Assembly: GCA_902802825.1 (NCBI GenBank)
Contig: CADCNV010000004.1
Location: 1-47,482 of the forward strand
Direction: 5' to 3'
Source: an uncultured bacterium
GTDB lineage: Bacteria; Cyanobacteriota; Vampirovibrionia; Gastranaerophilales; Gastranaerophilaceae
DNA: 47,482 nucleotides
The first letter of the stretch is position 1; every line of letters begins with the position of its first letter. The position numbers and the translations under genes are program-made. Below the pieces are notes generated by a model, which saw only the letters and a list, made by a program, of their open reading frames with translations, ran no database searches and was not told the DNA's origin. Positions 10,250 to 31,305 of the stretch are shown one piece after another.

Positions 10250-10558
10250 TTAGTATGACAAACTTGTCAAATTTGATTTCATTGCATCTGCCCTTTGCAT
10301 ATATCTGTAAAGTATCTTGTTTGCTACATCTTGAGGCATATCTATAAATTCTAAACCTGCTTTATCACCTTCAATTTTTACAACTTTTGCATTCAATGTG
10401 ATATCAACGTCATCAAATTTAATTGTTATTTTTGTTGTTTTACCGCGTTTTAATTTTTTGTCGTTTTTAACGGATACACCTGTTGTCGAAATATCTATAA
10501 TATCATAATTTGAACTCAAGTCGGTATCTGTCGTTGTATCAAATCTTTCGGATATACG
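10250..10558 (-). other. PilZ (c-di-GMP-binding) domain at the C-terminus of the giant exoprotein
   Basis: Encodes residues ~5684-5785 of the 10250-27607 protein. It has the two defining signature motifs in order and at normal spacing: RxxxR (RISER) and, 17 residues later, D/NxSxxG (DISTTG), followed by basic strand LKRGKTTKITIKF and the typical closing AGLEFIDM strand. PilZ domains bind cyclic di-GMP through exactly these residues. An internal ATG (10603, residue 5669) precedes it, but has no well-placed ribosome-binding site, so separate translation looks unlikely. Confidence 0.85.
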
Positions 10559-13500: not shown

Positions 13501-16500
13501 TTGCTGTATTACTTATTGTAATATCGCCACCTGCATTTAATATATTTGCATTAAAATCTATATAACCAAAACTGCTGTTAACGGTAGTATCTCCACCATA
13601 GTTTTCAATGTCTGCATTTAATAAGATTGCACTGCCACTGTTTGTTATGTTTATATTAGATGTTTTATCATCCATATTTGTTGTGTTTTGAATTACCCCT
13701 TCTAATGATAACAGACCGTCAAATTCGCTTCCGCCAATATTAGAAATATTAATATCACCATTTTTATTTATAATATTTGATTTTTCATCAGCATGTAAAA
13801 TACCCTGTGAATTTGTAATAGTAATACTTCCTTGTTCTGTGTTTTCAATAGTACTATTTTCAAAAGCAAAACCGCTGAGACTATTATCTATTGAAACTTT
13901 GCCGTTTAGTGCTGTTATAGAAGTATCTTTTATGTATAATCCGAAATTATCAGGATCATTATCATTATATGTTGATTTATTATCAATTTTAATGTCGGAT
14001 TCACCACTCTGAGATTCTATTTCAGAACCTACTATACTAAGTGTACCTGCATTTTCACCGTTTGTAATATAAACGCCGGTTCCAATATAATTACTATTAC
14101 CGAAATTATGGTAAATATCGGCGGTAATTTTCATATTAGCAGTGTTTGTTTCGGAACGTTCAGCATTGTTTTCAATATATATGGAACCGGCGTCAATACC
14201 TACAACTCCCCGGGCAGAAATTATACCGCCTACTTCCATGTTATTACCGCTGTTAAGGATTTTAACATAGCCATTATCCGTATCAATAGTACCTGTGATA
14301 ATTAAATCTTTCTTCTTATTATCAACAGTAATGTTACCTTTTTCGTTATACAGATAACCCGAAATTTTGGCATTACCTGCACCTTCATTTGTAACATTGA
14401 TGTTACCACCCGAATAGTTTTCAACTGCCCCTGCAATTGTAAGTTCATTACCGTTTGCCGTATTTAAAATGTTAATATCATGAGGCATTTCACTTAAATT
14501 TATAAGACTTCCGTCTTCGGTAATTTCTAAATTGCCGTTTTCATTTTCAACAGTAATATCACCATTTGTCGCAATCATTACACCATTTACCGTAATTGGA
14601 GCAGAACCGTCATTATCCAGTGTTATACTGTCAGCGATTGATGTTGCATTATAAGCGACCTGACCTCCGTTACTATATATGTATATATTTCCGCCATTAG
14701 GTGCATATAGTACACCATCAGCATTAACTTGTGAATTAGACATATTTGCTACTATGATATCGCCATATTCATTGTGAAGAAAAGTATCCTTACCTACATT
14801 CAAATTACCTGCATTATTATTGTTGTTTGCTATTGCGATAATGCCTTTTTCGTTATCTGTATGTTTAATTTGATGCACTGTTGCATTTACATCAAGTTTT
14901 CCTTTTGTATCCTGGAATATAAGTACATTTCCCTGCGTTTCAATATCACCTGATATTTTCATATCAGAATTTGCTTCATCAGTACTCGGTTTGGCTTCAT
15001 CATCATTATATAAAGCAACAAGACCTGCTGCGTATATTGCATTTTTAGAAGTGTTTCCATTTCCATCAATATATGATTTTTGTTCATTTACTTCAAGACC
15101 TGAACCGTTTGAACGAAGAAGTAAAATTGAATCATCTAATGATGAAACAAGTGAAACATTACCTTGATTGTCATGACTTATGATTGAAGCATTTGGTGAC
15201 GGATCAAACAACATTTTACCGTTTTCGTATTTAATCGCATTTCTTATGACACCATCTAATACAAGTTTCCCTGTTGAAGTAACACTTGTATCTGCCTTTG
15301 AATATCCCTGCGCATCTTTTACTTTATTGCCGTTTAAGTAATATCCACCATTACTTGTTGAATTTGTAACATTATAAACATTTAACTGCTTATCTGTTTG
15401 GTTATTAACAGTAATTTTTTGATATTTGTCATATGCTGTAATTTTATCGCTATTTATTGTATTTGAACCGGCAGCAGTAATATTTACTTTACCTCTTTGA
15501 CTTCTGTCAACACCTTTTACATCATTATTGATGTTATATAAATGTATTTGTCCGACCTTATAAACTGCTTTTACATTATTTGACGCATTTGCATAAGGAG
15601 TATTTCCAAGATTTATAAGGATATTTTCACCTGTTACAGGATCATAAGCAAGATTATTCAACATTTCATTCGTTATTGTTAGAGTCAAATCTTTATTATA
15701 ACCTGCCTTGATATTTGCAGATGAATTTACAGAGCCGGCTTTAATATTGACTGCATTCCCTGCAAAAATATTGTTTCCGTCATTTAATTTAACCAATCCT
15801 TTAGAATTGATATCAATATTTCCTTTTGTAGATATTAAATTTACTGCTCCTTTAACATTATCAGCGTTGAAACCGCTTAAAGAAATAGAACCGGAATCAT
15901 TAAATATTTTGAAAACATCATTTGAAACTATACTACCGTTAAATTTAATATCAGATGCCAAAGTTGAATTTGTTATATTTTGACTTGCTGCAAACGGATT
16001 AGCAATATCATAGTAATTGTTAATTACTATACCCTTACCTATACCTGATGTCGCTAATTTATAATGAACACCCGATGTTCCAACCTGAGAGAAAGAAATT
16101 GGAGTAAACACAAAATTCATTTCCGGATACTTATATTCATAAGCATTAGAACCATTTACGGCCTGATTTGTACCATCACCGAAAAATTCAGAATAACCTT
16201 TTCTGTAAATAACTAAGCCGGCATTTGATGCATTCCCTAAATCAACATCATTAAATATTAAAGAGCGTGTTGAATAGTTATCAACTTGCAATCCGCCTTC
16301 TGATACAACGAAATCGCCGCTGCCTTTAATGTATTTATTTGTCATACCATCAATTCTAATAGTAGAATCCTGTGAACTAATATCATTAAATACTATTGAA
16401 TAGGATGTATCTTTCGTTCTTGCAAATTCAGATTCAGATTTATTTGTAATATCAATTTTTTCAGCTTCTAAAGTAGCGATATGTGTATTATAATAAGATT

Positions 16501-19500
16501 TAGCAGTATTATAAAGAGAGATCATTTCTGTCATCTCTTTAATATCACTATTCAATGTATTAATCTTATCATCAAGACCTTTTACTTCATCACATGTTTT
16601 TACATTGTTTACTTCTGTCGGATTTAAAACGCCCGCATATTTAACACCGTCAAAAGAAGTGTAAGTCAGGAAATCACCATTTGGAGTCAGCATATTTTGG
16701 TTATTATTTCCCAAAGTACTATATGTCGTTATTACGGTATTTTTTTGCGCTCCGGACAAACCTAAACTTGTATTCCCTGATAAGAAATTACTTATAGAAG
16801 TATATTCTTTTGGAGTCTCAGGATGTGCCTGATTATATTCGTATATCGAATCAATTTCTTTTCCATATGCATTAACAAATGCACTATACTGTGTTTCAGT
16901 TAATTTGTCACCACCTGATCCTATAATTTTAGATTTAATGTCATTTATAATAAGGTTAGCAAATTCGCTTGTTTCTTGACCTTCAGGAACATTTGTATTT
17001 TTAAGAATATAACCGCCATCAATTAAAACATTAAAATCATCTACTATATTTTGCGCATTTGTTCTTTCTTGTTCTTCGCTTAATTTTGAACTTTCTAAAT
17101 TTGATAACTCATTATTAATCTCTTCCAGATCTGATTTTGCCTTATTTAATTTTGAATTTATCTCATTAAGTTTTTGGTCTTTTATTGTTTTACCATCAAC
17201 AATTTCTCCGCCTGTAAGGCTATAATCATCAGGATTAAGACCTATTGATTGTTCTTCATTAATGGTTCCGTCTTTATTTATTGTAATTTTTTTGCTACTG
17301 CCTGCTCCTGCTTGCATAATGCCATCAAGCACTAATTCATCATTTTCAATGTTACTTATTGGGTTTGTTGTTTTTTTATTTTCAATAGGAATCCCAAATA
17401 CTGCATAAGATATGGTTTTCCAATGCTTTCTGGAATCCAAATTATGTCTGCCGTTTGAATAAGTAACTTCAATATCCTTATCTGAAATAATTTTAGCCCC
17501 ACTTGGCACCAGCAGTTTGTTCGTTACTCTTTTTGTTAAATTGCCATCTTCCCAAGTTTTTGCAACAGCTGCACGGTTTTCTATATCAATATGGTTTGCC
17601 AAATCACTATAAGATTTGGTCATAAAATTAATATCGGCAAGATTGCCTGCTTTAATTGTACCTTTATTATCTAATGTATTATTTATATTTAAAGTTAACC
17701 ATGAATATGCCGATGGCGGTCCTGCAAAATTCGCAGCATAAGCAGAAACTTTGCTTGATAAAGTATTATTGGAATTGAAATTAAATACAGCATCATTTGC
17801 CGCATTAATAATTGAACTGCTATCTAATGTAATTTTATGCGTATAAGTAGGATCAAGATATGACCATACCTTTGGTACAGATACAAACCCTCTGCCGTCA
17901 GTGTTCGATTTTACCTTAAACCATGAGGATGTATCAGCAGATAATACCGCATTATTTTTTGCGTACAGTTTTGTATTGTTTAAATTAATTTCGCTTGTCT
18001 GATTGAGGTAATTATGAAGTGTAAGTTTCGGCACTGCAACAAATCCGCCGCCACCTGCTTTAAAATCAAATTCATTTCTTCTTTTTGCACTGATATCAGA
18101 ATGAGCATTTAATTTTATATCATTTGCATGGATTTCACTATTTGTTAAATTCAAATATGCGCCTGATGTATAAGTTCTTGTATAGGTATCATTAAGAACA
18201 GCAATAAAGCCACCGCCTGAAGCCGTACCGGTATCATCAACCAACGTATTATTTGAAACTTCAAAAGATACGTTATCTTTTGCTTTGATATTTGCATTAG
18301 ATATATTGGTTGTAGTCTTTGTATTTAATGTTGTATGATCGTTTATAACGCTTACATTTATTACACCGCCGGATGTATCTCTTGATTTTATATCAAATGT
18401 ATTTGTTGATGTGTTTTTAACGGTCATTTTGTTATTTAAATCGTTTGAAGCATTTGAAATATTAATATTCAGCGTTGAATCACCGTTAAGAGTATTATTA
18501 GACTGTGCATCATTAACACTTATAGCTCCGCCTGATCTTGTTGTTTTACTTATATAAGAATTTCTGTTTGTATTGAAATTGATATCTGAACTGTTAGCAC
18601 TATAATCCCCTGAAATATTACCAATTGTATTTGATGTCTGCGTTGCGCTGACTCTTGCACGCTGCCCCTGAACACCAACACCGACATTAAGAGCTTCTAA
18701 GTCAGAACTTGCCGTTGCATTATGAACAGCATTAATTGAGGCACCACCAATAATTTTATTCGTACCATTAATAGTTAAATTCAAGGTGCTTAAATCCGTA
18801 GATTCGGCATAAGCAGAATTTACACTAATAGCACCGCCTTTTCTTGTCCCTGTAGTCGTTTTAGCCAGAGAATCCAAATATGAATTAATTGTTAGTGTCC
18901 CAGTCTGATTATTCCCTGCGACCAAATATGTATTTGATTTTGCGGTATTATTTGTTTCACCAAAAGTTCCGGAGAAAAAGTTTGCAATAGTTGCTACAAC
19001 CTCATCAAGCGTATTTGTTGCGGTTATACCTTCACTGCCTGACTTTTTAGCTGTTTCAATTTTTAAATTCGCGCTATTATTAATTGTAGCACTTCCTGCA
19101 TTAATACCTGACTCAAAGGTTGAATTCATTTTTACAATTGCTTTATCGTGCCCAACAACATTTACGCCCTTAACTTGTGTAGAATCTACCGTATTTGCAA
19201 CCTTCATTACTCCGTAATCAGATACAAGATTTATGTTCTTTGAATTGATAGTCCCATTTACCGCTTCAATTAGTGATTTAGATATAGTTGATGCATTTGT
19301 TTCATTCCTGAATACTGCAGCAATATCAGCTCCGCTAACTTCTACGGTATTTTGTCTTGATTTTAAATCGGTGTTGATTGTTGAATGAGTTGATAAAGTG
19401 CCGTTTGCAGTAATATTGGTGTTACCCGTAATTTTTGCAAGACTGCTGTTATTATCAATATTTTCAAGAATATTAACACCTGCAATACCCGCTACTCTTA

Positions 19501-22500
19501 CACCAACAGCACGTGTTACAAGATCTGATTTACTTGTTGATTTTGTATTAACACTGACATTATTAGCATTAATTGTTGTATTGTTGCCGGTTGATCCTAT
19601 TTGTGCCAACGTATTTGAATTGTTTTTGTATATTGAACTGCCACCAGATAGTGCCACAGCAGAAACAGTTACACCCGTACTTGAAATTTCAACATTAGAA
19701 TTAGATTCTGCATTTATGCTGATATCTCCGCTTGTTATGTTTCCTCCGGATATAGTTGCATTTGTATCACTTGCAACTTTAAGATTTTTAACCGCAGCAT
19801 TAGGTGTAGTACCGCCAACCGTTACATCAACATTCTTAAGATATAAAGTATCCGTTAAATTACCGTTCTTATCAACACCTTTTATATTGCTTTTAGCATT
19901 CATTTCTAAAGCACCGGAGTTTTCCATATTTGCATTTATATTTGCAATAACACCGGTCTTGGCTTGCGTTGTATCGGCTTCAGGATTATAACGTGCTTTT
20001 TCTTCCTCAGTTGCTATTTTATCATAACCTTTTTTAGTTTCTTGAATAGCATTATTTATATGGCTTTCTTGTTCAGTTTCAGTATAACTTGAACCAAATT
20101 TACCGATTTTAACAAGTTGAACATCAGCAGCAATTGCAGCTAAACCTACTGCAGCACCTACTGCAAGATTTCTTATTGCATTTGTTGATTCTGAATTTAT
20201 ATAAGCTGAACCTGATTTTATCGCACTTGTACCTGATTGCGATAAAATTTCTGATTTTACAAGACTGTTAGCGGTATATAAATTAACACACGCAATTCCC
20301 GCTCCGGCTCCTCCGGCACCAACACCCAGCGTGTTATCTGCAATGGTAGTATCTTGTGCATTAAGATATAATTGACCTGCTATATTTATATCATTTCCGT
20401 TTTTTGCATCTATATAAGATAATGTTTTTGAGTCATTTTTAGTTACAAGAGCAGAAGCTGCCCCTCCAAAACCGACAATACCTGCAGATCCGCTAATATC
20501 ATAATTTTTCATTGTTCTTTTGGAATTTGCATCTAATTTAAGTCCGCCGTTATCAGTTGTTACACTTGAATTTGCAACTTTAGAAATTGATTCATTATTA
20601 AATACATCATATATAGTTGTTACAACAGCAGATACACCCTTTGCTGCAAAACCGCCTGCAATACCATAATTAACCAAATTATCTTTTTTGTCTTTATTTG
20701 TATTTAATTCTATTGATTTTGCAGTTACCGTTGAGTCAGTAATACTTGCTTCCGTTTTGGATATAAAATCATTTAAGATTACATTCGCAATAAGATTGGC
20801 ACCTACACCAACGCCTGAAGCACCTATTGCATAGTTTCTTGAATCAAACACAGAATTTGCATTCATTTTAATATCTTGAGCATTATTTATCGTAGAATTT
20901 GAATCAATAACTGCTTTTGTAATTGTATTATATGTATTTTTAATTGCCGTACCTGACCCTGCAAAACCTGTAGCAGCACCACCTGCATCTACTACTATAT
21001 CCTGAGTTCGGATGTTGGTATTGGCATTCATATTTATAGCAGCATTATTTACTGTTGAATTTGAAATCTCAGATACTATTTTTCCTTTTCTGTCTGCCGC
21101 ATTTGAATCATCACCATAATAGTTAATTAACGGACTTACATCTATTGTTACATTAACAGAACCTGCCGCCGCAACTACTACTCTTGAAGCATTGACATCT
21201 TCTTCCGTATTAATATTTAACGTACCTGCCGTTACTTTTGAACCTGTATCTACTTTAGCTACAGTATCATCTTTTATTGTATTTTTAAGAACATTTGTTT
21301 CTATCGAAGCTTTACCTGCACCACCTGCAGCCGCAAAGACCAATTTATTATCTTTTCTGTTCCAAGATGTAATATTTAAAGTATGTGCTACTGTTATATC
21401 GGAATTATTGCCAATAAGTCCTAACGTATTACTGTTATCTTTTGTAATATAAACTTGAGTGCCTAACGCAACAAATTTTGAACCGCTTATCTCTCCTGCT
21501 ACAATATTTTTAACTGAATAATCCGTAGCGGTAATATTCATATTATCTGAAGTAAGTTTAGTATTTAAAATTTTCGCATTTACGTTATTTTGAATATTTT
21601 TTATAATAACCGAACCGGGAACTGTAGCCGCAGAACCGGCAGCAAGATTATAAAACATATTCCAATTACCAAAACCGCTTGTATAATTTATTCCGTTAAA
21701 ATTACCTTCCGAATCTTTTGTTAATAATTTGTTTTGGTATGCTTCGGATGTTATGTCATCTCTATCGTATAACCCTTGAGCATTTTTAGTTCCGCCTAAT
21801 GAGTTTGTCGAAACAGCACTGACTGAAACTGTTCCGTTTTCCGCCTTTACAACACTTTGATTTGCTCCCTGAGCATCTGTTCCTATTTGTGCGTTAACGG
21901 TTTTTGCTATTTTATCAACATTTACGACTCCTGATACATCAACTGCTGTTTTAGGGCTTGAAGCCGCAAGAGTTCCGCCTCTGTTAAATAATGTTGTTTC
22001 ATCATCTGCGACAACCGTTATATTCTCGCTTGTTGCAGTAATTTCTTTTGCCTCAGCAAGAGCATTAGTTTTATTTTTTATAATGTTTACCGAAACATCT
22101 GCCGCAACTGCAGCTATACCCGTTCCTGCAACTGCAACTGCCGCCGGTATTAAATTGAGAGAAGATGCTGTTCTTGCACCAATTCCAACATTTGTACCCG
22201 CAGTTAAAATTGAATCATTTGAAACTTGTGACAAAACATCATTTTCAAAATGATTTACAAGAACGTTAGCTCCTATTGCACCGCCCTTTTGAACAGCATC
22301 ACCAAGGGCTGTTATTCCCTTAAAGTTAGTTGTATAACTTGAATTTATACTGATAGTTTCATTTGAATTTAAGTTTGAACCGTTTAAAACCTGAGCATGA
22401 ATTTGTGATTTTAAAACACTTACAATGCCATTTGCCGAAATACCGAAACTGCCCTTTTCGCTAAGGGCTCCGCCTAAATTTGCGGCAACAAAATCTCTTT

Positions 22501-25500
22501 TATCGTTTGAATTTGCTGTTACTTCAATTGATTTAGAATTTAATATTTTTGCATTGTTTACTTCGGCTTTTATTTCACTGTTGTCTATATCTACAATAGC
22601 ACCTATACCTGCACCGAATGAAAAACTTGTTGTCGTTGCATTAAGAGCACCGGTTGCAGTAAATCCGTCTATAATTGAATCAGCTTTTACTCTGACATCA
22701 CCCGTTGAATTTATTGTTGGTATATTGTTACTGTCCCCACCTAAAATAGCAGATACTCTGTTTTTTATAAGTTCAAGCCCTAAAGCACCGCCTATATTAA
22801 ATCCAAAACTTCCCTCGGTAACAACTTCGCCGGCAACTGATGTAGAATGGATATGTTGTTTTAATTCAGAATCAATATATGCATCTTTTACATTGTTTAA
22901 AACAGAATTACCGGTAATTTGAGCAAGAACAGTTTGTTCTAAAACATCCATATTTCCTGCAACACCTGCACCTATTGCAACCTTGTCTGAACGAGAATAA
23001 CCGACTTCACCTGCTACATTATAAATTTTGCTTTCTGTACTTGATGCAACATTAACATCAATGTCATTAGCAACATTTTCCTTTTTAGAAATTGTTGCAC
23101 CTGTTATTTTAGCACTTGTAGTATCTTTTAAAGTATTGGTATTAAATGAACCGCCTAAAGCAGCACCAAAACTTGAACTTACGCCTGATGCAATACCGAC
23201 ACCCATTGCAACATCTGTTACAAAATGATTGCTTGTTGCTGTTACATTCAATTTCTTGGCATTTTGGGAATTAAATGTAATCGTTCCACCTGTTATATCA
23301 GAGCTTACAATTCCTTTATTTGCATATATATTAACCCCGGCACCACCACCGATATTATCACCTTTTGCTACACCTCCCGATACATTTACCAGGAAGTTAT
23401 CTTTTGTTGATGTCGCATTTAATTCGTTACCAACATTCAATATGGCGTTATTTATGGCAGTTTTGACTTCTGACTTATCATTGAAAACTTCAACTGTTGC
23501 CGCTAAAGATGCCGAAAAATTACGTGAAGAACTTGTATTATCACCTGTTAATACATTAGCAACACCATTTGCCAATTGTGTAACATTCCCTGTTGTTCCT
23601 TCAGAATTAGCTGCACCTTCTGCGTTTGGATTATTATTGTTTAATAAATTCTGATTATTAGTTAATGACTGAGAATTATTATTGGCATCATTTGTTATTT
23701 CTTGAGAATTTCCGACATTAGGCAGATTTGATGTCTGTATACCTGATGTAAACGCACCGGCTGTAAGTACATTTATCTTTTTATTGAATGAATTTGACGT
23801 TACATTTATATTTTCTGCCGCAGTTATTTTTGCATTATCAACAAGTGCATTAATTTGTTTTGAATTTTTAGATACATCTACAGATCCGCCAACAGATACT
23901 CCTGTACCTGAATTCATCGCATTTGTACCGAATATTGTAATATTTAATACACCATCTTTTGAATCTCTTGCCGCATTTCTTACAAGTTCATGTGTAACAG
24001 GATCCTGAACAATGGATTCTCCCGAAACACCCAACAGTGCAGAACCTTTTCCTTTTGCTTTTGTTCTTGCTTTTGCTTTACCTGCTGATACATTAACATT
24101 TTGAGCATTAATAAGATTTGTATTATCTGCTAAATCCTCAATTGATGCCTTAGTTGTACCACCGATATTTTGTACGCTTACACTGCCTTCAATAGCAACA
24201 TTATTGGCTTTAGCCCCAGTTACGGCAATATTAATATAACCTTCTTCCGATGCTGATGAAACGTCTACATTGCCATTTTCTGCTGTTACTTTTGATTTAT
24301 TTATGGTTGCAGTCGCATTGTTAGTGAAGTTTTGAACAAGCACACTTCCACCCATACCAAATTTAGAAGCTTCAGCTTTTTGTTCCGGAGTACCGCCTTT
24401 AAGTGAGTTCAGAAAATCATTTATTTCCGTAATTAAAAAATCGACTTTCCCAGCACCGTCATAATTGACAACAGAATTAACGGAATTTACAAAAACATTT
24501 CCGTTTTCTGCCGTAACATTAGAACTGTCAATTTTCGCAGTAGTATTATTTGTAATTGAATTTGCAATGACTGAACCTGCTATTCCGGAATATTTTCCAC
24601 CCGTTTGAGCTTTTGCATAGTTATTTAGCAAACCGTCCATAGCTAAATCAAGACTTCCAATGGTTTGTTTAGGAGATTTAACGGCTTTTAAGAATTTTTG
24701 GAAACCTTCTTTATTTGCATTTTTGCCAATTACACCAAGCAATTCCATAAGATCTGAATGTATAAATTCAGTATCCCATTTGTCTATGTTATCTTCCTGA
24801 TCAAATGCAACACCGATATAATAATCTTTATCACCTGATTTTGTACCAACTTTTAGTTTAAATGGATTCATAGGAAGTTGGGTTTGAGCATCTACATTTA
24901 AAGTGGTTGCAGTCTGTATTGTTGAATTATTGATAATTTCTGCAATATTAGTGTTATTTTTATTATTAACTATAATAGCAGCCCCACCTCCAAGATTGGA
25001 GTTTGCAGCCGCATCAGCAATTGATTGGTTTGCCGTAAAATCAAGAATATTGGAATTAACATCAACAATATCTGCATTTACTATTGCACCACTTAATATT
25101 GATGATGCTTCGTTTATTTCATCATTCCATATAGCGGAACCCGAAAATTCAAGATGTGCTTTGTCAATTACAGAACCGACTTTATCGGTTGCTTTGTTTA
25201 AAAACTTTTTATTAAGCCAATCATAAACTTTTATTGTATATGACGGATCAAAATTATTCATTTCTTTGGTATTTATTGAATATTCCTGTTTTTTTGCCTG
25301 AACTTTTGTTTCGACTTTATTTTGAATACTTTCAATATTTTCAGCTATAAAGCGGGCTTGACCATAATCATAGGTTACATCCGTCATTACCGGATTATTT
25401 TCATCCGTTGTATTTGCTAAATCTACTTCTTGTTTTGTAACCGATGGTCTGTAATTTGCTTTTACGGTTGAACCGTTAACTGCTACATCCGCTTTTGTAT

Positions 25501-27607
25501 CCGTATGATTTATCAGCATACTTGCAGATATACCCGAACGTTCAGCGTTTTCACCGACATTTGAGACATTTTTAATTTTTATATCGCTTTGATTAAAACC
25601 GATTGCCTTAACATTAACATTTCCTGCCTCAATATTTGAACCTTCGCTAATTGTTACATTATTTTCAGAAGAAACAGAATTATTTAACAATGAGAAATTA
25701 TATCCGGAATATTTTCCTGTGGCACTGCCTGTAGTACTTCCGGCATTATCTATTATTGTTCTGAATTTGGAACTGTCGTAATCAATTGAATTATCAATTG
25801 ATGAAAAGGCATTAATATTTACACTGCCTGTTCCGACACCATCTCCGTTATTTGTTTGCGCATCATATACTCCATTTAAAGCAGATATTGTAGAAGCTGA
25901 TACATTAACTTTTGACTGCGTGCCTGAACCTAAGCCATACATCAATAATGCGTGAGAATCTAAATTACCGGTTGTAAGTTTTAATTTTGCATCAGCATTT
26001 GATGTTATATCAACAGAAGTTGCCCCTTTTATTTCGGAACCCAATGATATATCTATGTTCGCATTTGCCCTTGCACCGTCAAAGTTTTTATACATTTTAT
26101 CGCTGAAATAGCTAAAAAGTGCTTCTTTTGAACTCCACGGCAACTGATCAATAGCATCGCCTATAGCCGTATATTGATCGGCATCTTCACCATTTGACAA
26201 TTTTGCCAGTAGTTTTGGCATAATCCGCATTAATGCATCTGCGCCAAATAACTCAATCCATTTTTCCCAAAGAGGCGTAGTTAGCTGTATGTATGTTTCC
26301 GTACTGCTTTGAGCATTTGCCTTAACAGAAATGGTATCGGCTTTAATTTTTGTATTGCTGATTGAAACAGATGCTTTTGCTTCATCTGCCATGCCCATAG
26401 AACTTTTATGGATTTTATAACCTGATGTAGAATCTTGTGTATTTTCATTATTGTTATTATTGTTGCTTGCAGCTTTTTTTGCAGCTTCGCCGTACTCTTT
26501 TATGCTGTCTTCTGTTACTTCTTTTGCTAATTTTGCATTTGCCTCTATCTCAATATCATTTGATGCGATAAAAGAATCACTTATTGAAATTGCTGAATCA
26601 TTTGATGAAAGTGTAGAGTTTTCATATGTATTATCAATAGTATTTTCGGTTGTACTTTGGCCTTTACCGTCCTGGGTAACTTCTTTCTTTTCAACTGTCT
26701 TTAGACCGTTTGCTACATTGATTGTAGTAGTTGTTTGATATTTTTTCTTTTCAGCATTGTTATTATTTACGGCTTCTTCAGATGTATATACGGTTGTAAT
26801 AATTTCATCCTGCGCTCTGTTTGTAACAAGTTTAATTTTACCATTTTCAAGATTGAAACCTGAAGCACTTGTTATATTGTTTGAAACAAGGTCATTAAAC
26901 AAAGCCTCAGCAGCAGCATTTGAAGTTAATGTATTGTTATTATTTTGAATCCCTGCAAAAATACCCGGATTAACAGCACCTTCAACCTGATTACCATTTT
27001 CATCAGTTTCTTTTGAGATATTAATCGATCTTGCATACGCTTCAACATTATTACGTGCAAAAATTCTGCCATGGATATCAATAGTCCCTGATGAATTTGT
27101 AATTAAGCTCTTATAATTACCATTTGCCAAATCAAATTTATAATCGGCCATATTTTTATAATCGTTGGCCATCAACCCGTTTTTAAATGCATTGTAGGCA
27201 TTAGTTGAAGGTGCCATCATTGTTAATGAGCCAACATTCAATACCCCTGATGCACCGATTACCATACCGCCGGGGGAAACAAAAATTGCGTGACCGTTAT
27301 AAAAAGCATTGTCTTTCATTGTATTGACAATACCATTGATATTAATTTGGCTATCAACTAAATTTACAAATTTTGAATAATCTTTGTAAATCAGATTTGC
27401 TATATCATTTTTTGAAAGGTCAAAATTCGCATATTGCCTGAAACCTGTATCGCCGGAAACTTTTGCCGCCTCAATATTGTACGTATTTCCATTAGGTGTA
27501 ATGCCTGTAATATTAGAAGCCAAAACACTCGCAGGCAAATTCATCAAAAACATGTTTGCACTTAAAAATGCAGCAATTAATTTGCGTATATTTTTTGTTA
27601 CAGCCAT
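10250..27607 (-). CDS. Giant two-partner-secretion exoprotein (LktA/filamentous-haemagglutinin type) with a C-terminal PilZ domain
   Basis: About 5785 residues from the ATG at 27607; an in-frame TTG at 27619 is less likely. Residues 1-31 (MAVTKNIRKLIAAFLSANMF to VLA) are a signal peptide. A TPS domain follows (about 32-200): it includes NITGITPNGNTYNIEAAKVS and HAIFVSPGGMVIGASG, the form used by leukotoxin-LktA-like adhesins. Most of the rest is Asn/Ser/Thr/Gly-rich beta-helix repeats ('GNVNVSA'-like coils), interrupted at about 3470-3720 by a helical, coiled-coil-like segment (LNKAKSDLEEINNELSNLES). Two nearly identical 122-residue blocks lie near 4830-5070. Residues ~5683-5785 are a PilZ domain: RISER (R5684, R5688), DISTTG (D5705, S5707, G5710), then AGLEFIDMP. 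It should be exported by the divergent TpsB and act as a surface adhesin. The PilZ end is not expected on a secreted protein. No frameshift separates it. Confidence 0.93.
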   Translation of the reverse strand: MAVTKNIRKLIAAFLSANMFLMNLPASVLASNITGITPNGNTYNIEAAKVSGDTGFRQYANFDLSKNDIANLIYKDYSKFVNLVDSQININGIVNTMKDNAFYNGHAIFVSPGGMVIGASGVLNVGSLTMMAPSTNAYNAFKNGLMANDYKNMADYKFDLANGNYKSLITNSSGTIDIHGRIFARNNVEAYARSINISKETDENGNQVEGAVNPGIFAGIQNNNNTLTSNAAAEALFNDLVSNNITSASGFNLENGKIKLVTNRAQDEIITTVYTSEEAVNNNNAEKKKYQTTTTINVANGLKTVEKKEVTQDGKGQSTTENTIDNTYENSTLSSNDSAISISDSFIASNDIEIEANAKLAKEVTEDSIKEYGEAAKKAASNNNNNNENTQDSTSGYKIHKSSMGMADEAKASVSISNTKIKADTISVKANAQSSTETYIQLTTPLWEKWIELFGADALMRIMPKLLAKLSNGEDADQYTAIGDAIDQLPWSSKEALFSYFSDKMYKNFDGARANANIDISLGSEIKGATSVDITSNADAKLKLTTGNLDSHALLMYGLGSGTQSKVNVSASTISALNGVYDAQTNNGDGVGTGSVNINAFSSIDNSIDYDSSKFRTIIDNAGSTTGSATGKYSGYNFSLLNNSVSSENNVTISEGSNIEAGNVNVKAIGFNQSDIKIKNVSNVGENAERSGISASMLINHTDTKADVAVNGSTVKANYRPSVTKQEVDLANTTDENNPVMTDVTYDYGQARFIAENIESIQNKVETKVQAKKQEYSINTKEMNNFDPSYTIKVYDWLNKKFLNKATDKVGSVIDKAHLEFSGSAIWNDEINEASSILSGAIVNADIVDVNSNILDFTANQSIADAAANSNLGGGAAIIVNNKNNTNIAEIINNSTIQTATTLNVDAQTQLPMNPFKLKVGTKSGDKDYYIGVAFDQEDNIDKWDTEFIHSDLMELLGVIGKNANKEGFQKFLKAVKSPKQTIGSLDLAMDGLLNNYAKAQTGGKYSGIAGSVIANSITNNTTAKIDSSNVTAENGNVFVNSVNSVVNYDGAGKVDFLITEINDFLNSLKGGTPEQKAEASKFGMGGSVLVQNFTNNATATINKSKVTAENGNVDVSSASEEGYINIAVTGAKANNVAIEGSVSVQNIGGTTKASIEDLADNTNLINAQNVNVSAGKAKARTKAKGKGSALLGVSGESIVQDPVTHELVRNAARDSKDGVLNITIFGTNAMNSGTGVSVGGSVDVSKNSKQINALVDNAKITAAENINVTSNSFNKKINVLTAGAFTSGIQTSNLPNVGNSQEITNDANNNSQSLTNNQNLLNNNNPNAEGAANSEGTTGNVTQLANGVANVLTGDNTSSSRNFSASLAATVEVFNDKSEVKTAINNAILNVGNELNATSTKDNFLVNVSGGVAKGDNIGGGAGVNIYANKGIVSSDITGGTITFNSQNAKKLNVTATSNHFVTDVAMGVGIASGVSSSFGAALGGSFNTNTLKDTTSAKITGATISKKENVANDIDVNVASSTESKIYNVAGEVGYSRSDKVAIGAGVAGNMDVLEQTVLAQITGNSVLNNVKDAYIDSELKQHIHSTSVAGEVVTEGSFGFNIGGALGLELIKNRVSAILGGDSNNIPTINSTGDVRVKADSIIDGFTATGALNATTTSFSFGAGIGAIVDIDNSEIKAEVNNAKILNSKSIEVTANSNDKRDFVAANLGGALSEKGSFGISANGIVSVLKSQIHAQVLNGSNLNSNETISINSSYTTNFKGITALGDAVQKGGAIGANVLVNHFENDVLSQVSNDSILTAGTNVGIGARTASSLNLIPAAVAVAGTGIAAVAADVSVNIIKNKTNALAEAKEITATSENITVVADDETTLFNRGGTLAASSPKTAVDVSGVVNVDKIAKTVNAQIGTDAQGANQSVVKAENGTVSVSAVSTNSLGGTKNAQGLYDRDDITSEAYQNKLLTKDSEGNFNGINYTSGFGNWNMFYNLAAGSAATVPGSVIIKNIQNNVNAKILNTKLTSDNMNITATDYSVKNIVAGEISGSKFVALGTQVYITKDNSNTLGLIGNNSDITVAHTLNITSWNRKDNKLVFAAAGGAGKASIETNVLKNTIKDDTVAKVDTGSKVTAGTLNINTEEDVNASRVVVAAAGSVNVTIDVSPLINYYGDDSNAADRKGKIVSEISNSTVNNAAINMNANTNIRTQDIVVDAGGAATGFAGSGTAIKNTYNTITKAVIDSNSTINNAQDIKMNANSVFDSRNYAIGASGVGVGANLIANVILNDFISKTEASITDSTVTAKSIELNTNKDKKDNLVNYGIAGGFAAKGVSAVVTTIYDVFNNESISKVANSSVTTDNGGLKLDANSKRTMKNYDISGSAGIVGFGGAASALVTKNDSKTLSYIDAKNGNDINIAGQLYLNAQDTTIADNTLGVGAGGAGAGIACVNLYTANSLVKSEILSQSGTSAIKSGSAYINSESTNAIRNLAVGAAVGLAAIAADVQLVKIGKFGSSYTETEQESHINNAIQETKKGYDKIATEEEKARYNPEADTTQAKTGVIANINANMENSGALEMNAKSNIKGVDKNGNLTDTLYLKNVDVTVGGTTPNAAVKNLKVASDTNATISGGNITSGDISINAESNSNVEISSTGVTVSAVALSGGSSIYKNNSNTLAQIGSTGNNTTINANNVSVNTKSTSKSDLVTRAVGVRVAGIAGVNILENIDNNSSLAKITGNTNITANGTLSTHSTINTDLKSRQNTVEVSGADIAAVFRNETNASTISKSLIEAVNGTINSKNINLVSDYGVMKVANTVDSTQVKGVNVVGHDKAIVKMNSTFESGINAGSATINNSANLKIETAKKSGSEGITATNTLDEVVATIANFFSGTFGETNNTAKSNTYLVAGNNQTGTLTINSYLDSLAKTTTGTRKGGAISVNSAYAESTDLSTLNLTINGTNKIIGGASINAVHNATASSDLEALNVGVGVQGQRARVSATQTSNTIGNISGDYSANSSDINFNTNRNSYISKTTRSGGAISVNDAQSNNTLNGDSTLNINISNASNDLNNKMTVKNTSTNTFDIKSRDTSGGVINVSVINDHTTLNTKTTTNISNANIKAKDNVSFEVSNNTLVDDTGTASGGGFIAVLNDTYTRTYTSGAYLNLTNSEIHANDIKLNAHSDISAKRRNEFDFKAGGGGFVAVPKLTLHNYLNQTSEINLNNTKLYAKNNAVLSADTSSWFKVKSNTDGRGFVSVPKVWSYLDPTYTHKITLDSSSIINAANDAVFNFNSNNTLSSKVSAYAANFAGPPSAYSWLTLNINNTLDNKGTIKAGNLADINFMTKSYSDLANHIDIENRAAVAKTWEDGNLTKRVTNKLLVPSGAKIISDKDIEVTYSNGRHNLDSRKHWKTISYAVFGIPIENKKTTNPISNIENDELVLDGIMQAGAGSSKKITINKDGTINEEQSIGLNPDDYSLTGGEIVDGKTIKDQKLNEINSKLNKAKSDLEEINNELSNLESSKLSEEQERTNAQNIVDDFNVLIDGGYILKNTNVPEGQETSEFANLIINDIKSKIIGSGGDKLTETQYSAFVNAYGKEIDSIYEYNQAHPETPKEYTSISNFLSGNTSLGLSGAQKNTVITTYSTLGNNNQNMLTPNGDFLTYTSFDGVKYAGVLNPTEVNNVKTCDEVKGLDDKINTLNSDIKEMTEMISLYNTAKSYYNTHIATLEAEKIDITNKSESEFARTKDTSYSIVFNDISSQDSTIRIDGMTNKYIKGSGDFVVSEGGLQVDNYSTRSLIFNDVDLGNASNAGLVIYRKGYSEFFGDGTNQAVNGSNAYEYKYPEMNFVFTPISFSQVGTSGVHYKLATSGIGKGIVINNYYDIANPFAASQNITNSTLASDIKFNGSIVSNDVFKIFNDSGSISLSGFNADNVKGAVNLISTKGNIDINSKGLVKLNDGNNIFAGNAVNIKAGSVNSSANIKAGYNKDLTLTITNEMLNNLAYDPVTGENILINLGNTPYANASNNVKAVYKVGQIHLYNINNDVKGVDRSQRGKVNITAAGSNTINSDKITAYDKYQKITVNNQTDKQLNVYNVTNSTSNGGYYLNGNKVKDAQGYSKADTSVTSTGKLVLDGVIRNAIKYENGKMLFDPSPNASIISHDNQGNVSLVSSLDDSILLLRSNGSGLEVNEQKSYIDGNGNTSKNAIYAAGLVALYNDDEAKPSTDEANSDMKISGDIETQGNVLIFQDTKGKLDVNATVHQIKHTDNEKGIIAIANNNNNAGNLNVGKDTFLHNEYGDIIVANMSNSQVNADGVLYAPNGGNIYIYSNGGQVAYNATSIADSITLDNDGSAPITVNGVMIATNGDITVENENGNLEITEDGSLINLSEMPHDINILNTANGNELTIAGAVENYSGGNINVTNEGAGNAKISGYLYNEKGNITVDNKKKDLIITGTIDTDNGYVKILNSGNNMEVGGIISARGVVGIDAGSIYIENNAERSETNTANMKITADIYHNFGNSNYIGTGVYITNGENAGTLSIVGSEIESQSGESDIKIDNKSTYNDNDPDNFGLYIKDTSITALNGKVSIDNSLSGFAFENSTIENTEQGSITITNSQGILHADEKSNIINKNGDINISNIGGSEFDGLLSLEGVIQNTTNMDDKTSNINITNSGSAILLNADIENYGGDTTVNSSFGYIDFNANILNAGGDITISNTATELAIVDGVDISGSVINLDGDINISSNQGALNIDENAVILNVATDETKHDFNITSSGTGFDLNGTIGNLNGDIKVTNTGTATANIAGTIETGNGDILISNSNDGALNVSGNISNETGKITITNNSSDGMVIDYLANIQNNDTTNTEITNTGGSAIIENGAKIVNAQGGNISVSNSGVGLAIDGLIENQGTGEINVNNTGTGALAIAETSSLKTADGDIGISNSNYGALTIDGAITDDNGKITVTNNSSDGMVIGSTANIQNKGQTNTVINNTQGSAIIEYGAKITNTQGGDISVSNSGVGLAIDGLIENQGTGEINVNNTGTDALAINETGILHSTDGNIEIVNSSTAGIDLIGSVKADKQNVEITNSNGDLRIGGYADSNDSYITAVTNNVIISQTGGSILNGVAEDGVTHQHHDLANANPAYKTLISANGDITFNVTDGDIGSYSNTEIVAGTSFDASTRDYTESINVQANGLVNAKVVNNTNTDDRLINLRAKESDLKIGTIETDGNVILTAADWKQADIRPVDKSDTEYFSGYSMLNGRNDNNSNIIGKNISLITSGSFGTTDKKLIYEEDTLNGGSNVSLSAEAENGLHLTGRSNSDADVKVSSIISKHGSVDIDFESNAEIEHITADEGLLITQKAQNLTIKEFGTSGSSSALNFNDMLYPHDDITFDGSSTESTIPKYVDIKVLDSMDNPNRGNSTLKIYTGYVKGNNGDNANYYPNGARLADITLMADNIYAMSDIMQTPTYSDRVDLGNTNLTYVIDGETRTAKGLNAYGEGSTLTLDILGVDKDIVDNSGISANRNSYNSQVSVQNVPSKFQNNADEIPFYGSDYSAQNVVLSVNDYSNRDVNFDTLYTDNAYISTNKDNLHFDNAYVNNFAEIRNSNKAAVVDNERIGLLPAADIQLYTKKTGSFNLGLNDTINMHTSAPTVYNNPTMLVNGYHSAWNFVNRGFKENKDLIENIKMTNDIDKNNYNEPQKRISERFDTTTDTDLSSNYDIIDISTTGVSVKNDKKLKRGKTTKITIKFDDVDITLNAKVVKIEGDKAGLEFIDMPQDVANKILYRYMQRADAMKSNLTSLSY
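12542..13290 (-). repeat. Tandem internal repeat of the exoprotein (period 366 bp)
   Basis: The ~100 bp at 12542-12640 reappear almost unchanged at 12908-13006, an offset of 366 bp or 122 codons. The protein blocks share GVGLAIDGLIENQGTGEINV and the more diverged TNNSSDGMVI...GSAII units. The high DNA identity against diverged flanks points to recent duplication or gene conversion inside the beta-helix. Confidence 0.8.
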
Positions 27608-27732
27608 TATTATTCCCAAACGTTAATATATGTATAATTTTAACTCAAAACACAATATTTTTTGATATTTTAAGCTCAATTTATTTAAAAATTTTACACA
27701 ATGTAATAATCAACAAAATTTAACGATTTTTA

Positions 27733-27741: not shown

Positions 27742-27757
27742 TTTGTCAGCAGGGATT

Positions 27758-29692
27758 ATGAAAAAGGGAATTTTATTAAGTTTAGTATTTTGTGTTGCAT
27801 TGCAAATACCAACATTTGCAGCAGATGTTTTTCCGAGTATAATTCCGGAAACCGGAACTATCAACACACATGATTTGGAAACTCTTAAACAACAACAAAT
27901 AGAACAACAGGTTCAGGAAGATTTTAAAAATTACGAAAAACGTAAAAAAGAAGGAAAAATCAAACCTGAAAAACAAAAAAAAATTAAAGCAAAAGTTGAA
28001 AGAGCAAAAATTGAAGAATATGCAACAAAAGGCGTTTATGTAGAAAATATTGAAGTATCTCCATCACAGATTTTGACCAAAGAAGAAATAAAAGATATTC
28101 TTGAAGATTATACCAAAACAAATATTACATTTGAACAATTAAAAGAAATTGTAGACAGAATTAACAAACTTTATCTTGAAAAAGGTTATGTAACAGCCAG
28201 AGCATTTCTGCCTGAACAAACAGTTGAAAATGAAACAATAAAAATTGAACTTCTGGAAGGTAAAGTCGGAGATATTTCAATTGAAGGAAACAAATGGACA
28301 CGAACTTCATATATTCGCAAAAGATTAAATTTTAGAAAAGGCGAATTGTTTAATCTTCAAACACTGGAAGAAAATTTAATGATATTCAACCGATATAATG
28401 ATGGGGTTGAATTAAACGGAACATTAGCACCCGGTCAAAGTCAGCTCGGAACAACGGATGTAAATGTAAAAGTAAAAGAACGTTTACCCTTTCGTGTAAC
28501 TGCTTTAATGGATAATGCCGGCAGATCAACTATTGGACGAGTTCGTGGCGGCTTGATGCTTCAAGATGAAAGCCTGTTTGGATTCAGAGATAAATTAACA
28601 ATCGGGGCTTACGCAAGCAGATATTCCGTAACACCTTTTGCGGATTACAGTATTCCGGTAAACAAAAAAGACGGAAGAATAGGGTTTAGTTTTTCTTCGA
28701 GCAATTCGAAAGTCGGCTATGGTCCTTATAACATGTTTAACATAAAGAGCCGTTCGCAAAATTATTCTCTTTATTATATGCAGCCTTTATACCGAAGACC
28801 TTGGACTGAGTTGTCCAGTTATACATCTGTTTCATACAAAAGGGCGACAACAAGTTTTGACGGAATTGATTTATATACCGATCAGGTTACATCTGCTCAG
28901 ACAGGATTAAGCTTCAGATATGATACAAAAAGAGGTATTTGGTATATAAATCAGAATGTAAGTTACGCATTTCCAATTTTTGACAGCAAATCAAATTATC
29001 TAAAACTTGATGGCGGCATTTTAAGATTACACGATTTTGGACATGGTTTTGTAGGAACATTGAGAGGTAATTATCAGGTTGTACCTACAAGAGAAATTAT
29101 TCCATATTTGGATCAGTTTGTAGCAGGAGGTACCGCAACAGTAAGAGGTTATTCTGAAGGTTTGTTAATCGGTAGACACGGCTATGTGATAAGTGCAGAA
29201 ATAATGTTTCCGTTTGGTCCAAGAGCCATAAAAAGCAAAAAAGACAAAGAAAAATATATTCCATTTATCGGTAACTACTTAAAGGGTTTTGTATTTGCAG
29301 ATCACGCAGGTGTTTTTCCATACAAAGGAACCGGTCCGGGATCCGAAGGTTATGATTCTAATGACTTTTTAGCCAGCATTGGTTTGGGGTTAAAAGTTAC
29401 TTTACCGGGGAATATAACTGCAAAACTTGCATGGGGTTTTCCTCTTATGAGAAACAGCCACGAAGCAGATTATCATCAGGGCAGATTCCATTTTGAATTA
29501 AGTCTGCAACCTGACTTTGATACACTTGTAAAATTGAGAAAACCGAAAAATGTTGAAAAAGTTAAAATTGATGATGAAATAAAATTTGTAAAAAATGATA
29601 AAAAAGAGAATATTTCTACATTACCCCCAAAACACACAGTTATTAAATCTTTAAGTAATGAGCGCAGGTATAATTTGAGTTATAAAAAGTAA
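27758..29692 (+). CDS. TpsB/ShlB-FhaC-family outer-membrane transporter
   Basis: 644 residues from the ATG at 27758 (AGGG 5-7 nt upstream; an in-frame TTG at 27743 lacks one). Signal peptide 1-22 ending TFAA. A charged linker rich in Lys/Glu (50-90) takes the place of the plug-helix region. A POTRA domain follows at about 93-170 (YVENIEVSPSQI to IKIELLEGKVGDI). The C-terminal part is a 16-strand barrel with the conserved TATVRGY loop-6 motif (about 458-464) and FVFADHAG (about 511), both diagnostic for two-partner secretion and Omp85 proteins. It should recognise the TPS domain of the giant exoprotein in the periplasm and thread it outward. The two genes are divergent and 150 bp apart, a typical cognate arrangement. 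Confidence 0.94.
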   Translation: MKKGILLSLVFCVALQIPTFAADVFPSIIPETGTINTHDLETLKQQQIEQQVQEDFKNYEKRKKEGKIKPEKQKKIKAKVERAKIEEYATKGVYVENIEVSPSQILTKEEIKDILEDYTKTNITFEQLKEIVDRINKLYLEKGYVTARAFLPEQTVENETIKIELLEGKVGDISIEGNKWTRTSYIRKRLNFRKGELFNLQTLEENLMIFNRYNDGVELNGTLAPGQSQLGTTDVNVKVKERLPFRVTALMDNAGRSTIGRVRGGLMLQDESLFGFRDKLTIGAYASRYSVTPFADYSIPVNKKDGRIGFSFSSSNSKVGYGPYNMFNIKSRSQNYSLYYMQPLYRRPWTELSSYTSVSYKRATTSFDGIDLYTDQVTSAQTGLSFRYDTKRGIWYINQNVSYAFPIFDSKSNYLKLDGGILRLHDFGHGFVGTLRGNYQVVPTREIIPYLDQFVAGGTATVRGYSEGLLIGRHGYVISAEIMFPFGPRAIKSKKDKEKYIPFIGNYLKGFVFADHAGVFPYKGTGPGSEGYDSNDFLASIGLGLKVTLPGNITAKLAWGFPLMRNSHEADYHQGRFHFELSLQPDFDTLVKLRKPKNVEKVKIDDEIKFVKNDKKENISTLPPKHTVIKSLSNERRYNLSYKK

Positions 29693-30715: not shown

Positions 30716-30889
30716 TGTCGACGGGGGGACTTGTCTTGAATTTTACTGTTTCTCGGACAAGTGATTTGCTTCACTTCGTTGTCGCAAATCTTTGTCCTCA
30801 CATACTCGAGTTCGCTCGCTATCGCTCGACTTAACTCTTACGTAAAATTCGCTGAACCCCCAAAACTGGGCTTCCAGCCCGACCCAACT
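30716..30889 (-). pseudogene. tRNA-Leu-like relic, T loop split by an insertion
   Basis: The 18 bp TGTCGACGGGGGGACTTG (30716-30733) are identical to the 3' part of the intact tRNA-Leu (30934-30951). In the intact gene they continue directly into AACCCCC; here AACCCCC appears only at 30855-30861, after ~121 bp of other sequence. A small hairpin GGGC-ttcca-GCCC (30868-30880) lies where the anticodon or variable arm would be. Deleting the insertion restores the T arm GGGGG-TTCAAGT-CCCCC and the acceptor strand, but the rest of the cloverleaf is lost. Confidence 0.6.
30734..30854. mobile_element. ~121-bp insertion with 9-bp terminal inverted repeats
   Basis: GAATTTTAC (30738-30746) and GTAAAATTC (30842-30850) form perfect near-terminal inverted repeats. 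Inside, GGACAA/TTGTCC (30755-30760, 30792-30797) and GATTTGC/GCAAATC (30763-30769, 30784-30790) build a long hairpin, followed by GAG/CTC-rich arms around 30805-30836. No coding capacity. It could be a miniature element or a mobile structured RNA. No second copy was noticed in this window. Confidence 0.4.
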
Positions 30890-30896
30890 ACATAAT

Positions 30897-30930
30897 AAAA
30901 AAGATACTGACATTAGTCAATATCTTTTTT
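30897..30930 (-). terminator. Intrinsic terminator of tRNA-Leu
   Basis: On the minus strand AAAAAAGATA-TTGAC and GTCAGTATCTTTTTT pair (plus-strand arms 30897-30911 and 30916-30930) with one mismatch and a 4-nt loop, ending in T6. It begins 3 nt after the tRNA 3' end. The symmetric A/T flanks make it potentially bidirectional. Confidence 0.8.
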
Positions 30931-30933
30931 ATT

Positions 30934-31014
30934 TGTCGACGGGGGGACTTGAACCCCCACAGCTCTCGCCACATGCACCTCAAGCATGCGTGTCTACCAT
31001 TCCACCACATCGAC
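30934..31014 (-). tRNA. tRNA-Leu (anticodon GAG)
   Basis: An 81-nt cloverleaf. Acceptor GTCGATG pairs with CGTCGAC (one G-T pair), discriminator A, CCA not encoded. D arm with TGGAATGGTAGACACG; anticodon arm CATGC-TTGAGGT-GCATG with GAG at positions 34-36; long class-II variable arm TGGCGAGAGCTGTG; T arm GGGGG-TTCAAGT-CCCCC. It reads CUC/CUU Leu codons. A -10 TATAAT at 31030-31035 (minus strand) lies 15 nt before the 5' end, and a terminator follows directly. Confidence 0.96.
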
Positions 31015-31058
31015 ATGGTATCTGATTACATTATAATCCTACTATGAAATTATCACTT
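31004..31058 (-). repeat. tRNA-Leu 5' end plus promoter, duplication unit 1
   Basis: These 55 bp cover the first 11 nt of tRNA-Leu and its promoter, and recur at 31140-31194, 136 bp away, with only three differences. The -10 TATAAT and its distance to the RNA 5' end are kept in both copies. Confidence 0.85.
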
Positions 31059-31068
31059 GTCCAATACC

Positions 31069-31150
31069 GTCGATGTGCCGGATGTTGTCTGAGACAACCC
31101 TCTCCTCGGACGATACTTAATCGTCCTCGTCGGCAGAGTACCACATCGAC
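31069..31150 (-). ncRNA. Candidate ~82-nt structured RNA behind a copied tRNA promoter
   Basis: On the minus strand the sequence starts like tRNA-Leu (GTCGATGTGGTA) but then differs completely. A 9-bp closing stem GTCGATGTG/CACATCGAC joins 31142-31150 to 31069-31077, extended by an inner CCG/CGG match (31078-31080 with 31131-31133). It encloses two perfect hairpins: GGACGAT-n5-ATCGTCC (31108-31126) and GTTGTC-n3-GACAAC (31084-31098). The upstream copied -10 TATAAT (31166-31171) is spaced as in the tRNA gene. It is not a recognisable tRNA: no T arm and no anticodon arm of 5+7. I know no RNA family that fits. Confidence 0.4.
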
Positions 31151-31194
31151 ATGGTATTTGATTATTTTATAATCCTACTATGAAATTATCACTT
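31140..31194 (-). promoter_or_regulatory. Duplicated tRNA-Leu promoter, unit 2
   Basis: A copy of 31004-31058 upstream of the structured RNA candidate: -10 TATAAT at 31166-31171 (minus strand), same 15-nt gap to the RNA 5' end, same upstream AAGTGATAATTTCATAGTAGG. It would start transcription toward the candidate RNA and then the tRNA. Confidence 0.6.
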
Positions 31195-31203
31195 TACAAT
31201 TAT

Positions 31204-31230
31204 TGTCATTCTGAACTTGTTTCAGAATCT
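31204..31230. repeat. Short dispersed palindrome, copy 2
   Basis: TTGTCATTCTGAACTTGTTT then CAGAATCT; stem ATTCTGAA (31208-31215) and TTCAGAAT (31221-31228). Compared with copy 1 at 2595-2622 the CC/GG pairs became TT/AA, keeping the stem intact. Confidence 0.65.
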
Positions 31231-31277
31231 TTTCAAGCTCATCATACCACAAAAATTATTCTCATACAAAAAGATTA

Positions 31278-31305
31278 TTGAAGTTCTTGTATTCTATTGT
31301 AAAAT
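31278..31305 (+). promoter_or_regulatory. Promoter giving a probably leaderless mRNA for the 31312 gene
   Basis: -35 TTGAAG (31278-31283), 16-bp spacer, -10 TAAAAT (31300-31305). The ATG starts only 6 nt after the -10, so transcription should begin at or next to the start codon. No ribosome-binding site is present. Confidence 0.5.

Follow-up and report, generated by a model that had tools for sequence, protein, structure and literature searches.

The tRNA-Leu(gag) locus and its upstream repeat

The locus described here lies in a 47,482-nt stretch of DNA (the window) on contig C4 of genome G000, an assembly of 1.62 Mb in 84 contigs. The window holds a single tRNA gene, encoding tRNA-Leu(gag), on which ARAGORN and Rfam agree, and upstream of it, on the same minus strand, lies an 82-nt structured element. 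Elsewhere in the window, a very large ORF of 5789 aa (10250-27619), with filamentous-haemagglutinin-like repeats and a PilZ-like stretch at its end, faces a 649-aa ORF (27743-29692) that resembles an outer-membrane secretion partner, both as judged by eye. The features of the locus are given below, where R1 is a covariance model built from 17 Leu-type copies of the element and R2 a core-only covariance model.

30933-31015, minus strand: intact tRNA-Leu(gag) (ARAGORN; Rfam RF00005, 55.3 bits)
31004-31058, minus strand: tRNA-proximal copy of a 55-bp direct repeat (gap-free alignment)
31043-31056, minus strand, with an upstream copy at 31192-31179: spacer box GTGATAATTTCATA, probably a weak form of the recurrent TTGACAATTAAATA (box enriched at tRNAs with the element)
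31069-31150, minus strand: 82-nt element, consisting of a tRNA 5' piece, conserved core, second hairpin and closing strand (R1 covariance match, 1.5e-26; MFE z = -3.1)
31069-31077, minus strand: 3' strand of the outer stem (P1'), a new sequence that complements the 5' end of the tRNA (fold; P1 pairing permutation test)
31080-31100, minus strand: second hairpin (P3), GG-GTTGTC/GACAAC-AT-CC (fold and covariation in a 17-sequence alignment)
31099-31139, minus strand: conserved core ACTCTGCCG-hairpin-AGAGG (P2), a CTCT/AGAG helix and hairpin with loop TAAGT (R2 match at 31144-31098, 69.1 bits, E 1.7e-15; covariation)
31142-31150, minus strand: 5' strand of the outer stem (P1), the first 9 nt of the tRNA-Leu copy (sequence; fold)
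31140-31194, minus strand: upstream copy of the 55-bp direct repeat, comprising the spacer box and the first 11 nt of the tRNA (gap-free alignment, three differences)
31274-31303, minus strand: possible native promoter, TTTACA-18-AATAAT, ahead of the entire unit (best minus-strand consensus match in the region, tied)

The 55-bp stretches at 31194-31140 and 31058-31004 align without gaps and with exactly three mismatched positions, their starts lie 136 bp apart, and both terminate in nt 1-11 of the tRNA (GTCGATGTGGT), which bears out the preliminary description of this repeat. After the shared GTCGATGTGGT the upstream copy continues into ACTCTGCCG... and the proximal copy into GGAATGG..., the sequence beyond the upstream copy being ACTCTGCCGACGAGGACGATTAAGTATCGTCCGAGGAGAGGGTTGTCTCAGACAACATCCGGCACATCGAC. 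This continuation is indeed not tRNA-Leu, as had been proposed: neither a cloverleaf (ARAGORN) nor a match to RF00005 was found in the 82-nt element, the tRNA match being confined to 31015-30933.

At the other end of tRNA-Leu, its 3' end, lies a second, different palindromic insertion (30716-30932), in which part of the tRNA 3' end is copied in antisense (GTCGACGGGGGGACTTG) and followed by about 195 bp of palindromic sequence and then by the intact gene. A counterpart with 95% identity is found in genome G021, and the insertion is partly present elsewhere in its own genome.

Structure of the element and its conserved core

The element is closed by a 9-bp outer stem (GTCGATGTG/CACATCGAC, 31150-31142 with 31077-31069), in which the tRNA 5' end is reused and paired with a matching new 3' strand, and which encloses two inner hairpins; this architecture, put forward in the preliminary description, is evident both in the sequence and in the predicted fold. 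Its minimum free energy of -38.3 kcal/mol compares with -27.95 +/- 3.34 for dinucleotide shuffles (z = -3.1), and 0 of 200 shuffles equalled it. A search of the window with Rfam 15 matched the tRNA alone and returned no family for the element, while a sensitive Rfam search of 31030-31220 gave one chance match, to sR34 (11.7 bits, gathering score 40). Known RNA families and ribozymes were accordingly rejected as the identity of the element.

What defines the family to which this element belongs is a core of about 41-50 nt, ACTCTGCCG-hairpin-GAGAGG, the P2 pattern of which can be written as A-CUCU-GCCG(A)-hairpin with a URARU-type loop, followed by AGAG-GG. Across 24 core sequences, both partners vary in eight of the ten P2 pairs, 95.8% of cells are paired, and double changes are seen in 54 cells against 12.3 in shuffled alignments (0/500). 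G-U pairs account for just 14 of 1178 P2 pairs (1.2%, 124 unique cores), unusually low for an RNA, which hints at pairing at the DNA level or at correction by template switching. A kink-turn reading of CUCU-GCCGA/GAGAG was rejected when reasoned through by hand, since not every variant has a geometry that fits it.

Distribution across the Gastranaerophilales

In a DNA search across 46 genomes of the genus, a stretch of about 47 nt of the element recurred at several sites per genome, often in tandem at spacings of about 100-130 bp. R1 matched 44 of these 46 genomes and, more broadly, 250 of 286 sampled genomes of the order Gastranaerophilales, in 35 of 50 genera. In a phylum-wide sample of 386 genomes the 168 positives all belonged to this order, and the element was not found in the other orders sampled. 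Copy number by R2 ranges from 0 to 49 per genome, with 7 copies in the genome of the window, 21 in G024, 32 each in G105, G116 and G191, 49 in G095 and none in G169, and the relatives G178 and G180 are likewise free of copies; the genomic copies listed score about 45-76 bits. Named sequence records with an exact pattern are mostly Gastranaerophilales or Melainabacteria metagenome-assembled genomes, the rest being uncultured or apparently mislabelled. Carriage by phages was considered and rejected, the 42 pattern matches in viral contigs reaching only 15-23 bits with R2 and being judged chance or coding matches.

The covariance search in relatives thus recovered homologues with covarying stems, in the inner hairpin as given above and in the outer stem as described below, to a degree beyond chance, and the preliminary description withstands this comparison because the structure covaries across many genomes. 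The element is a member of a large, order-wide family and not one altered tRNA, and the family is apparently undescribed, since none was found in Rfam or literature searches.

Arrangement at tRNA genes

The core occurs at Leu, Met, Pro, Val, Ile, Lys, Phe, Arg and Glu tRNA genes, in sense or antisense orientation, as well as in palindromic repeats that are not tRNAs. A tRNA lies within 900 bp downstream, in the orientation of the core, in 165 of 209 distinct copies (146 sense, 19 antisense), a sample biased towards Leu as its loci were fetched mainly with R1; antisense copies occur at Phe, Met, Leu-caa, Arg and Glu tRNAs. The idea that the core is confined to tRNAs whose anticodon has A at position 35 was considered and is contradicted by Pro, Lys, Arg and Glu.

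The typical layout at a tRNA locus comprises a flank with tRNA nt 1 to about 11, the core, a second copy of the flank, and then the intact tRNA. Within the partial tRNA copy, which is the 5' part of the gene or, for antisense elements, its 3' part, the core takes the place of 3-7 nt, usually after nt ~11 in the D arm and sometimes in the anticodon arm, in the T arm or on the antisense strand. The gap between element and tRNA is only about 18 nt at two loci (L028 and L033), decayed copies are seen at L008 and L235, and one Leu-gag locus (L020) has no element. At two antisense tRNA-Leu(caa) loci (L004 and L201) the target resumes past the core and is followed by an inverted copy of it, GAACCGGAGGTTCGACTCC, a signature expected from template switching. 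For one complex copy (L202) a group II intron was considered and found no support in Rfam or in nearby ORFs. A sister hairpin element, which starts with AAGGACTCC and has a like loop (TTGAGTAT) and similar insertion sites, is present at three further loci (L221, L227 and L247).

Two classes of loci can be told apart, class A comprising copies at Leu-gag, Leu-cag and antisense Phe, and class B those at Leu-taa, Leu-tag, Pro, Val, Lys and Ile. Class A copies also carry the second hairpin, GG-...-(A/C/T)T-CC, and their closing strand pairs with the 5' flank of the host in 262 of 290 cells against 228 +/- 4 when permuted (0/2000, 58 copies), through pairings that include GTGGC/GCCAC, GTGAC/GTCAC and AACTC/GAGT. 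At class B loci the tRNA sequence picks up again after the core for about 10 nt (for example GGTAGCGCA), and by the same kind of permutation test the closing strands are no better complementary to their own hosts than to others. An outer stem universal to the family, which had seemed general by eye, was given up, the permutation test backing it mainly at Leu-gag/cag, Met and Phe loci; as the complementarity is restricted in this way, the outer stem of the window element is typical of one class and not of the family.

Probable Leu-gag orthologues, the spacer box and the possible promoter

Eleven probably orthologous Leu-gag loci, with the downstream spacer in common, were compared. Pairwise difference is 51% in the upstream flank and 16% in the spacer, with 92% and 44% variable columns, respectively, whereas ACTCTGCCG and AGAGGG have zero variable columns. 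The invariance of these end motifs may reflect selective retention, although conversion between loci could also cause it.

For most of the 11 loci, what precedes the element copy bears no relation to the spacer ahead of the tRNA; that spacer is present before the element only in the window, L008 and L009 and partly in L017. L009 consists of two full units, and L008 of one full unit and an upstream unit interrupted by other sequence; the 55-bp repeat of the window is probably a remnant of the tandem unit, or spacer, of a former array. The proposal that a tRNA promoter had been duplicated thus holds as far as the repeat itself is concerned, but its promoter content is doubtful given the unrelated upstream sequence of most orthologues. 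Between the presumed native promoter and the element, at about 31204-31230, lies a dispersed repeat, GTCATTCTGAACTTGTTTCAGAATC, that is like a repeat in L024.

The spacer box, TTGA(C/A/T)AA(T/C)T(A/G/T)AATA, is mostly located 0-28 nt before element-bearing tRNAs and is rare in shuffles. A box near TTGACAATTAAATA at or above the set score is present in 57% of element-bearing spacers, a figure that overstates the enrichment because the profile was built from instances in the same spacers, as compared with 0.3% of shuffles and 28% of tRNAs in which no core was recognised, a group that includes several with degenerate elements. The box is possibly part of a promoter or a processing site.

Copies outside tRNA genes and the question of movement

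Near-identical copies of the element are found within GTCATCCTGAGC...CTCAGAATGAC palindromes in G152 and G095, and other host repeats that are not tRNAs are GTCATTGCGAGCGA... in G024 and GCGGATTT[AG]C... in G105. At L192 an empty version of a repeat, GAGC-AAA-GCGAAGG, lies near a filled one, the pair not being the same site in near-identical strains. Within a genome, cores from different targets show greater similarity than expected (0.812 against 0.775; 0/1000 permutations of genome labels), and identical cores are found at tRNA-Ile and tRNA-Pro in G191 and in several different repeats in G105. Identical cores at unrelated sites of one genome, together with the dispersed repeats, point to a mobile or converting palindromic element.

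Two kinds of enzyme were considered as movers and dropped, since neither correlates with copy number. The Y1 transposase (PF01797), cognate partner of REP/RAYT systems, was found in 4 of 15 genomes and in none of the carriers G095, G152 and G116. Reverse transcriptase (PF00078), as a retron or RT-linked RNA would have in its carrier genomes, was absent from G000, G024, G152 and G105 and present in G169, which has no copies.

Origin and possible roles of the element

In our judgement the window element is probably one instance of a palindromic (hairpin) element specific to the order Gastranaerophilales, for which spread by insertion or non-allelic conversion is the likeliest route, in a family that is most likely kept in part by selection. 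The core would spread between sites by insertion, non-allelic conversion or template switching, the latter two of which would also account for the inverted target pieces in some copies, and its targets, tRNA genes and dispersed palindromic repeats, are sequences able to form hairpins themselves. Where the target is a tRNA gene, only events that spare an intact tRNA would survive, which would explain why all tRNA copies seen sit in a partial duplication; the repeated units may then grow and shrink in number as tandem arrays, with the 55-bp repeat in the window as a probable leftover. Sense copies are probably co-transcribed with the tRNA and predicted to form a three-way-junction RNA, and some may be retained for a putative role in the processing or control of tRNA precursors. 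Orientation, with 146 sense and 19 antisense copies, tracks the target and not transcription, as would suit mobility. Against insertion stand the end motifs, invariant amid diverged flanks where dead insertions would be expected to decay, and the spacer box before element-bearing tRNAs, which a simple hairpin insertion leaves unexplained; nor does any mobilising enzyme, Y1 or reverse transcriptase, track copy number.

These same end motifs, conserved at orthologous loci, could instead belong to a functional small RNA, a P1-P2-P3 three-way junction made from the tRNA unit, with P2 bound by a putative protein, that would act in trans or on tRNA processing and be under selection at tRNA loci, other copies being offshoots. 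The conserved covarying structure expected of such an RNA is found in P2, in P3 and, with the host tRNA 5' end, in class A P1, and the window fold beats its shuffles. We nevertheless hold this to be possible but rather doubtful: the antisense copies at Phe, Met, Leu-caa, Arg and Glu are out of reach of the tRNA promoter, copy number is low or zero in many relatives and as high as 49 in others, P1 complementarity is lacking at Leu-taa, Leu-tag, Pro, Val, Lys and Ile, and the rarity of G-U pairs in P2 also fits selection on a DNA hairpin or template-switch correction. A wider formulation, which we offer tentatively, is a new, order-wide class of structured RNA, parasite or partner of tRNA transcription units, in which a P2 core with a putative recognition factor has been grafted onto tRNA 5' ends, the outer stem often being re-made to match the host, such that the tRNA-matched RNAs would act on tRNA processing or spread via tRNA genes. 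Were element and tRNA one transcript, as the short gaps at L028 and L033 make likely, P1' would have two possible partners, its own 5' strand and the identical 5' end of the tRNA, and the element might thereby switch tRNA maturation; this cis-acting leader is improbable, as P1' is not complementary to the tRNA at class B loci, antisense and non-tRNA copies do not fit, and some tRNAs of the same kind (L020) have no element. The origin proposed in the preliminary description, in which the promoter and 5' end of the tRNA were duplicated locally in tandem and the tRNA copy then decayed to become a new RNA, has in its favour that the local repeat and the reused tRNA 5' end are real, but it is very improbable: the same core is present at unrelated tRNAs and at non-tRNA repeats, and a core found outside tRNA-Leu genes cannot derive from tRNA-Leu sequence. 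Of the two possibilities raised there, a functional small RNA is compatible with the covarying structure and invariant core ends, while an altered tRNA is not supported, the core being found at nine kinds of tRNA and in repeats. The occurrence of the core at many kinds of tRNA, in both orientations and in non-tRNA repeats, instead marks it as an inserted or exchanged element.

Relation to known elements

The elements described here form a widespread hairpin family in a major gut lineage, one not found in Rfam or literature searches, and illustrate how essential tRNA genes can be occupied by an element and yet stay intact. They could reveal a mechanism of mobility or a tRNA-linked RNA function, with hundreds of natural copies on which to test either.

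REP/BIME sequences are dispersed hairpins with conserved foot motifs, partly in tandem, that are moved by RAYT (Y1) transposases. The present elements share with them the dispersed hairpins, the conserved motifs at the foot and the partly tandem arrangement; unlike REP/RAYT systems, no Y1 genes were found in G095 or G116, with 49 and 32 copies. In the rtT repeats of the E. coli tyrT operon, tandem units beside a tRNA gene include a portion of the tRNA and give rise to an RNA. In adjoining a tRNA gene as tandem units with part of the tRNA they are similar, but they lie downstream and hold the tRNA 3' end, and they are not known to have a conserved core common to other tRNAs. Fungal mitochondria carry double hairpin elements, small hairpins in repeated copies that have been regarded as invaders of genomes. 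Repetitive hairpin-forming elements of sponge mitochondria are likewise described as thought to invade genomes (PMC2800124). Compared by description, both are small repeated hairpins as here, but mitochondrial.

Rickettsia palindromic elements (RPEs) insert in frame within protein genes and are longer. Unlike these, the core here spans about 41-50 nt and sits mostly at tRNA genes, beside an intact tRNA copy. RPEs have been described as selfish elements that are palindromic and transposable (PMC6649704, citing Ogata et al. 2000, 2002). On that description the likeness is of short palindromic mobile elements, present in many copies within one group and inserted inside genes, and the many dispersed short palindromic copies of an insertion element of the RPE kind are found here, at 0-49 per genome.
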